From contig CACLQI010000003.1 of NCBI GenBank assembly GCA_902608975.1, positions 1 through 64,000 of the forward strand: DNA of 64,000 nucleotides. Reading direction: 5' to 3'. Position 1 is the first letter of the stretch. Every line of letters begins with the position of its first letter. Positions 4,069-11,879 of the stretch are shown here, one piece after another. The stretch is from an uncultured Pelagibacteraceae bacterium. Lineage in GTDB: Bacteria > Pseudomonadota > Alphaproteobacteria > Pelagibacterales > Pelagibacteraceae. The notes below the pieces were generated by a model. The model saw nothing but the letters and a program-made list of their open reading frames with translations, did not search any database and was not told where the DNA came from. Position numbers and translations under genes: made by a program.

Positions 4069-4128
4069 ATTTTTATTTTTTAGTGCTTTTGATAATTCAA
4101 GGTGCACAAGTAAATTTAAATACCTTCG
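4069..4128 (-). promoter_or_regulatory. SAM-II-like riboswitch in the metY leader
   Basis: On the minus strand, AAGGT (4122-4126) pairs with ACCTT (4099-4103), enclosing a loop that begins ATTTAAATTTAC and ends GTGC. That GTGC (4104-4107) can pair with GCAC (4083-4086) downstream, followed by TAAAAAAT, which can pair with the U-rich part of the loop. This is the H-type pseudoknot layout of SAM-II, and the conserved-looking AUUUAA and CUAAAA stretches are present. The GGAGGG site lies directly after it, fitting translational control by S-adenosylmethionine. SAM-V shares this topology and is the main alternative. Confidence 0.62.
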
Positions 4129-4154
4129 AAAAATTTTTTTCGTATTAATAGTTT

Positions 4155-10113: not shown

Positions 10114-10383
10114 TTAGAACGAAAAACCTTCTTTTTTTAGTAACCTTTTCTTGGCTTTTGTACCTCCGGCAGAAGAAAAACCACCCAGACTTCCATCAGA
10201 TCTAATAACTCTATGACATGGCACTCTAGGCGCGTATGGGTTCTTACCACATGCATTAGCCACAGCTCTAGCTGATTTGGGTCTATTTATAGCAATAGCA
10301 ACCTGTTTATAGGTTTTTACCTTACCTTTAGGTATTTTTATAAGATATCTCCAAACTTTATTCTGAAATTTAGTGCCTTGCAT
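10114..10383 (-). CDS. ogt: Methylated-DNA--protein-cysteine methyltransferase (Ogt/MGMT type)
   Basis: The catalytic domain of an alkylguanine-DNA alkyltransferase. The acceptor Cys is in 'RVPCHRVIRSDGSLGGF' near the C-terminus, the helix-turn-helix Arg finger in 'SARAVANACGKNP', and the domain opens with 'FQNKVWRYLIKIPKGKV'. I start it at the Met at 10383 (89 residues). The ORF-track extension to 10476 reads through a terminator hairpin and has no family similarity. The protein consists of the catalytic domain alone, without the N-terminal domain of full-length Ogt, like short alkyltransferase-like forms but with the active Cys kept. It looks richer in G+C than neighbouring genes. Confidence 0.85.
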   Translation of the reverse strand: MQGTKFQNKVWRYLIKIPKGKVKTYKQVAIAINRPKSARAVANACGKNPYAPRVPCHRVIRSDGSLGGFSSAGGTKAKKRLLKKEGFSF

Positions 10384-10397
10384 GATTTTATAAATTG

Positions 10398-10441
10398 AAA
10401 AAACCCCTGTTTCCTTGTGCTTTTTACGGCACAAAGAACAG
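10398..10441 (-). terminator. Strong intrinsic terminator ending the structured RNA
   Basis: On the minus strand, CTGTTCTTTGTGC and GCACAAGGAAACAG form a 13-bp stem with one bulged A and a 7-8 nt A-rich loop. GGGG and six T follow. It ends 14 nt before the ogt start codon, so it would either end a separate RNA or attenuate ogt. Confidence 0.85.
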
Positions 10442-10580
10442 TAGTTTTGGCACGTCGTTGTATGCGCTACCGCCATGCCTTCCGCCCTACAATTTTAGCG
10501 CTACTCTGTAGGACTTTCTGCCCCCTGGGCTTGAACCTCTCGGTTTTTCCCCAATCGGCCAGTTAAGGGTTGCCCCTTAA
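10398..10580 (-). ncRNA. Unassigned structured RNA, about 180 nt, upstream of ogt
   Basis: G+C is about 54% over the 138 nt I counted (10442-10579), in a genome where only stable RNAs are GC-rich. Read on the minus strand it contains a 7-bp hairpin TTAAGGG-GCAA-CCCTTAA, a hairpin AACC-GAGA-GGTT, an 8-bp stem GTCCTACA/TGTAGGGC, a 5-bp stem GGCAT/GTGCC, and the terminator. Both short loops are GNRA only on this strand, which fixes the sense. I find no tRNA fold, tmRNA tag frame, RNase P core GAGGAAAGUCC or SRP core. It is either a free small RNA or a leader controlling ogt. The 5' end is approximate. Confidence 0.7.
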
Positions 10581-10582
10581 TT

Positions 10583-10593
10583 CAAAAATCAGC
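10583..10593 (+). repeat. 11-bp direct repeat, right copy
   Basis: Second copy of CAAAAATCAGC (first at 9779). It lies just upstream of the structured RNA in its own direction. Confidence 0.35.
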
Positions 10594-10676
10594 TTATCAA
10601 ACAATAAAAGTTGTATGTATCACTTTATTGTTGAATATATTGATTTTTTAACACCTGTGAATATTGGGGATAATTT

Positions 10677-10922: not shown

Positions 10923-11879
10923 ATGAATGAATTAGTAACTGATGTAAAAAGTCTCGAATTGGAAACTTTAAAAAACTTAAAGAATTCTAAATCTTATAAT
11001 ACTTTAAGAGCATATCAGGCAGATTTTAAGGACTTTTCAGCTTTCTGCTTTAAAAATGGACTATCCTCAATGCCTACAGAGCCTAAAATATTATCAATTT
11101 ATCTTACATATTTATCTAAATCATCAAAATTTAGTACTTTAAAAAGAAGAATAGCCTCTATAAGCGTGATTCATAAGATGAAAGGACATTATTTAGATAC
11201 AAAACATCCAATAATAATGGAAAACCTTCATGGAATTAAAAGGACTCTAGGAGCAAAACAAATATCAAAAAAACCTATATTAATCAACGATTTAAAATTA
11301 ATAATTAATGTAATTGATCAAATAAAAATTAAAGATAAAACCGGTTTAAAAGAATTGAAAGCTAAATCATCAGATGTAAAAAGAGATAAGGCAATAATAC
11401 TTTTAGGATTTGCAGGTGGTTTTAGAAGATCAGAATTAGTAAATATAGATTATGAGGACATTGAGTTTGTTCAAGAGGGTGTCAAAATAATAATTAAAAG
11501 ATCTAAAACAGATCAGTATGGTGAAGGAACCATAAAAGCTATCCCCTACTTTGATAATGAAAAATATTGTCCTGTAAAAGCTTTAAAAAATTATATGAAT
11601 TATGGATTTGCAAAATCAAATAAGGGAAAAATATTTGATATTTCAGATAAATCAGTAGCACTTATAATAAAAAAATATGCCGAAAAAGCAGGCTTAGATT
11701 CAGCCAAATATGCTGGACATAGTTTAAGATCTGGATTTGCTACGTCAGCAGCTGAATTTGGTGCCGAGGAAAGAAATATTATGGCCATGACAGGTCACAA
11801 AACAACACAAATGGTTAGAAGATATATTCAGGAAGCAAATTTGTTTAAAAATAACGCTCTTAACAAAATAAAAATTTAA
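10923..11879 (+). CDS. Tyrosine recombinase / site-specific integrase
   Basis: A 318-residue integrase of the lambda-Int/XerCD superfamily. The N-terminal SAM-like DNA-binding domain is at about residues 10-100 ('YNTLRAYQADFKDFSAFC'). The catalytic domain has all expected residues: Arg in 'GGFRRSELVN', Lys in 'IKRSKTDQ', His-x-x-Arg in 'GHSLRSG', His in 'MTGHKTTQM' and the nucleophile Tyr in 'VRRYIQEA'. It is complete and probably active. It is not XerC or XerD by context. It has its own promoter and a 9-7-9 inverted repeat, and it is convergent with the polysaccharide cluster, its stop overlapping by 4 nt. Confidence 0.92.
   Translation: MNELVTDVKSLELETLKNLKNSKSYNTLRAYQADFKDFSAFCFKNGLSSMPTEPKILSIYLTYLSKSSKFSTLKRRIASISVIHKMKGHYLDTKHPIIMENLHGIKRTLGAKQISKKPILINDLKLIINVIDQIKIKDKTGLKELKAKSSDVKRDKAIILLGFAGGFRRSELVNIDYEDIEFVQEGVKIIIKRSKTDQYGEGTIKAIPYFDNEKYCPVKALKNYMNYGFAKSNKGKIFDISDKSVALIIKKYAEKAGLDSAKYAGHSLRSGFATSAAEFGAEERNIMAMTGHKTTQMVRRYIQEANLFKNNALNKIKI

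Follow-up and report, generated by a model that had tools for sequence, protein, structure and literature searches.

SAR11 ranks with the ocean's most abundant groups of bacteria, and expression of the IMES RNAs in seawater has been reported. IMES-2 (Rfam RF02035) is an already catalogued marine RNA family, so the RNA that we describe here is not itself new; the possible novelty lies in a covarying contact between two of its loops and in a promoter region that accompanies the gene at other chromosomal sites. IMES-1 (RF02034), which was named in the same marine motif series, gave no match in 118 Pelagibacteraceae genomes, a result that does not prove absence, as the controls were likewise without a match. 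The sole open paper that we found to name IMES-2 is a squid genome paper, in which it appears as probable environmental contamination (PMC6962438), and IMES goes unmentioned in the main text of a published survey that covered the structured RNAs of P. ubique HTCC1062 (PMC2704228).

Within the window, by which we mean the whole stretch of 64,000 nucleotides that was analysed, cmscan placed RF02035 on the minus strand at 10587-10447, matching the model end to end (positions 1-141) with 160.5 bits and E=3e-42, above the gathering score of the family, which is 54.7 bits. That the RNA of this locus is IMES-2 is virtually beyond doubt. The first-pass annotation had considered it unassigned and possibly new, and had proposed a comparison of the minus strand with all Rfam models as the test of novelty; that comparison returned a clear, high-scoring known family and so disposes of the novelty. 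The RNA and its surroundings are as follows:

10447 to 10587, minus strand: IMES-2 RNA body (Rfam RF02035, model 1-141, cmscan 160.5 bits).
10398 to 10448, minus strand: intrinsic terminator identified by folding, with a hairpin at 10448-10400 and a six-T run at 10403-10398.
10114 to 10383, minus strand: ogt (6-O-methylguanine DNA methyltransferase), a separate gene downstream of the terminator (Pfam PF01035, E 1.1e-32).
10923 to 11879, plus strand: tyrosine recombinase, a divergent conserved neighbour outside the RNA gene (Pfam PF00589, E 9.8e-19).

Of the limits first given for the RNA, 10398-10580, the lower one holds, as the T-run ends at 10398, and the upper one does not: the conserved RNA begins near 10587. 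The hand count of 74 G+C in the 138 nt at 10442-10579 proved exact on recount and lies far above the mean of 26.8% (sd 6.4) across 138-nt stretches of the window; a count of at least 74 occurs in only 16 of the roughly 63,900 such stretches, every one of them at the IMES-2 locus. Folding of the minus strand gave -74.2 kcal/mol against -51.1 +/- 3.9 for shuffled sequences (z=-5.9), in agreement with the earlier reading of a stable structured RNA on this strand. Indels one or two bases long among homologues, together with stop codons in all frames, argue against a coding function. Computation shows a non-coding unit of about 190 nt, present as a single copy in the window's genome, that has a terminator and a conserved upstream region to itself. 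Elsewhere in the window, a SAM-V riboswitch at 4070-4134 scored 50.7 bits, which exceeds its own gathering score.

All five stems that had been proposed from the letters alone are present in the minus-strand fold, namely P1, P2 with its two helices, P3, P4 and the terminator, and the two GNRA loops also found their places, GCAA in P1 and GAGA in P2. The elements of the RNA body, with the changes seen among 51 non-redundant homologues, are:

10563 to 10580, minus strand: hairpin P1 with a GCAA loop; 100% of cells paired, two-sided changes at 4 of 7 pairs.
10518 to 10562, minus strand: hairpin P2, made up of two helices, a conserved internal loop and a GAGA loop; two-sided changes at 12 of 15 pairs.
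10484 to 10514, minus strand: hairpin P3; two-sided changes at 8 of 8 pairs.
10449 to 10479, minus strand: hairpin P4, in which one position is always non-standard (purine-purine); two-sided changes at 7 of 9 pairs.
10496 to 10501, minus strand: P3 loop strand GCGCUA, covarying with 10464-10469.
10464 to 10469, minus strand: P4 loop strand UAGCGC, covarying with 10496-10501.

The nested structure was taken from Rfam. In the 51 homologues 93.5% of cells were paired, compared to 30-42% when partners were slid by one to three columns, and two-sided changes were found at 34 of 45 pairs, so that the stems covary strongly in homologues and the hairpins carry the compensatory changes of the family. 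At alignment columns 125/144 in P4 a standard pair occurs in none of the 51 homologues, and this position is a conserved non-canonical contact. The most strongly conserved unpaired bases lie mostly in loops, in linkers and in the loop-loop contact, with no obvious long single-stranded conserved seed.

From the pattern of covariation we are highly confident that the loops of P3 and P4 pair with each other as a loop-loop helix of 6 bp. Two-sided changes were seen in 28 cells of this helix compared to 6.1 after shuffling, and 95.1% of its cells are paired, in the very sequences in which the helix was spotted by eye, so that the data are not independent of its discovery. The two most variable of its pairs contain no unpaired cell. 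When the loop states were mapped by parsimony onto a tree from which the loop columns had been left out, nine switches of the four-letter state were inferred, nine in each loop, and both loops always changed. Some loop pairs, GUUCUA with UAGAAC for example, are not self-complementary and so speak against loops that merely pair with their own kind; the helix could nevertheless form between two molecules instead of within one. It provides a concrete structural model for IMES-2.

The gene occurs in at least four neighbourhoods. In Pelagibacter the order is recombinase, RNA, ogt and an eamA-like gene; in several other genera the RNA follows mnmA and is itself followed by a convergent gene, and in two further genera the neighbourhoods are different again. 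Of the homologues that could be tested, 50 of 50 have a terminator-like hairpin at the end of the RNA, compared to 0 of 102 control stretches. At the locus itself a simple terminator scan missed the intrinsic terminator, and it was folding that revealed it, at 10448-10398 and ending in the six T that had been noted before. Because of the variety of neighbourhoods, the 50 of 50 terminators and an upstream module found in every neighbourhood, IMES-2 is almost certainly an autonomous gene.

This bears directly on the reading of the RNA as a cis-acting leader or attenuator of ogt, which is suggested by its place directly upstream of ogt and on the same strand in the Pelagibacter loci examined, with ogt starting about 50-60 nt past the RNA in most of them. 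A strong terminator, however, separates the two, the other genera have no ogt nearby and often a convergent gene downstream, and many Pelagibacter ogt loci are without such an RNA, all of which makes a leader function extremely improbable. Nor does the RNA move with the recombinase. The adjacent, divergent tyrosine recombinase and the patchy presence of the RNA within Pelagibacter would fit an RNA carried by a mobile element, as had been proposed; but a recombinase match remains in 27 of the 33 ogt loci fetched that lack the RNA, in other genera the RNA lies next to mnmA or to different genes and no recombinase matched there, and neither patterns searched in viral contigs nor BLAST against phages returned a copy. 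Carriage by a mobile element is hardly credible on this evidence, and the earlier suggestion lacks support.

Some of the neighbouring genes deserve a comment of their own. Many Pelagibacter loci without the RNA (among L033-L110) have AT-rich DNA between recombinase and ogt, with an apparent reading frame for a small membrane protein. The downstream genes in two other genera (L118 and L124) have, by eye, the look of SRAP-type and RmuC-type proteins. A DNA-repair gene may thus sit downstream in three of the four neighbourhoods, which could be coincidence.

Upstream of the RNA, motif searches by expectation maximisation (EM) found three elements:

10594 to 10603, minus strand: weak -10-like region TGTTTGATAA, variable in position (log-likelihood 87.9, shuffled 30.0).
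10618 to 10633, minus strand: conserved proximal upstream element CAACAATAAAGTGATA (log-likelihood 629.9, shuffled 55.0).
10656 to 10673, minus strand: conserved distal tandem element TTATCCCCA-NN-ATTCACA, DnaA-box-like (log-likelihood 642.0, shuffled 77.8).

The tandem DnaA-box-like element (10656-10673) and the CAACnAnnAAGTGATA element (10618-10633) go with IMES-2 in every neighbourhood type: the distal tandem TTATCCaCAnnATTcACA lies about 80-90 nt upstream of the RNA and the proximal CAACtAnAnAGTGAT some 50 nt upstream; in the loci displayed, which span neighbourhood types, the latter sits at -48 to -51. The proximal element CAACAATAAAGTGATA is probably a -35 region with an extension, and the distal element resembles DnaA boxes in its motif. 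In the window's genome the exact distal and proximal patterns each occur only at IMES-2; exact matching was mostly too strict to yield hits in the six other genomes searched. In 12 near-complete Pelagibacter genomes without IMES-2, matches to the upstream element were no commoner than those to a reversed-pattern control, and the matches inspected in genomes lacking the RNA looked coding or unrelated. The module points to control of the IMES-2 gene. We speculate, as an unlikely but specific model suggested by the motifs, that IMES-2 serves as a riboregulator with a pseudoknot, coupled to the state of replication or of DNA damage in SAR11 cells apparently devoid of Hfq and CsrA. Its dedicated promoter would be controlled via the tandem TTATCCMCA-like element by DnaA or by another factor that recognises similar sites, and a protein partner would in turn be controlled by the RNA.

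IMES-2 was found in 134 of the 197 Pelagibacteraceae (SAR11) genomes sampled, with one copy each among the matches listed, and in the order and class samples, too, matches were confined to that family; these samples are partial and many of the genomes incomplete. The loci retrieved via ogt were likewise titled Pelagibacteraceae in most cases. Within the samples, then, the RNA is specific to its lineage, as first supposed. It is absent from 20 genomes of Pelagibacter, the genus to which the window belongs, that are at least 94% complete, implying that it is dispensable there. A broader covariance model built from the 51 homologues in order to find divergent copies gave weak matches in these 20 genomes (best E 0.008, 20.3 bits); since the best of them reads as the rpoA-rplQ coding region, we treat them as chance. 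Presence and absence among near-complete genomes of one genus offer a natural comparison.

How such an RNA works in SAR11 is of interest, as no match to Hfq or CsrA was found in the genomes tested: each was found in none of eight genomes, with positive controls, which makes both an Hfq-dependent small RNA and a CsrA sponge less likely. A trans-acting RNA that regulates mRNAs by base pairing without Hfq is a doubtful, if still plausible, alternative. Such RNAs usually have a gene of their own that ends in a terminator and is preceded, as here, by a conserved region that seems to be dedicated to it, but besides the lack of an Hfq match, the conserved positions here are mostly paired or engaged in the loop-loop contact, and the letters of that contact vary freely as long as pairing is kept, unlike a seed that has to recognise many mRNAs. 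The best overall explanation, which we hold to be somewhat likelier than all others taken together, is an autonomous RNA with a loop-loop contact that acts in trans by binding a protein; for the protein-binding mode of action itself, inferred mainly by exclusion and from the concentration of conservation in structure, the chances are about even. Transcription would start near 10587, with the conserved upstream elements controlling the promoter, and would end at the intrinsic terminator; the P3-P4 contact would close up the 3' half and make it compact, and the RNA would then act as the structured partner of a protein, sequestering or scaffolding it, and would be neither a leader of the neighbouring gene nor an Hfq-dependent antisense RNA.

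Of the known RNAs, 6S (RF00013) is similar in length to IMES-2 and also stands alone, and a replacement of 6S in this lineage that binds RNA polymerase would be consistent with the finding of RF00013 in 0 of 31 relatives, when the same search was positive in 5 of 14 control genomes. SAR11 6S could, however, be too divergent for the RF00013 model; the locus has no sequence-structure match to that model, its four hairpins with a loop-loop contact differ in architecture from the one long stem and central bubble of 6S, and many near-complete Pelagibacter genomes are without IMES-2, so that we regard a 6S replacement as very unlikely. The IMES-2 motif itself agrees with the locus in its full-length match, in the same nested hairpins and in being a separate RNA gene. 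It differs in that the RF02035 covariance model is nested and contains neither the P3-P4 loop-loop helix nor the upstream module, both of which are described at this locus.
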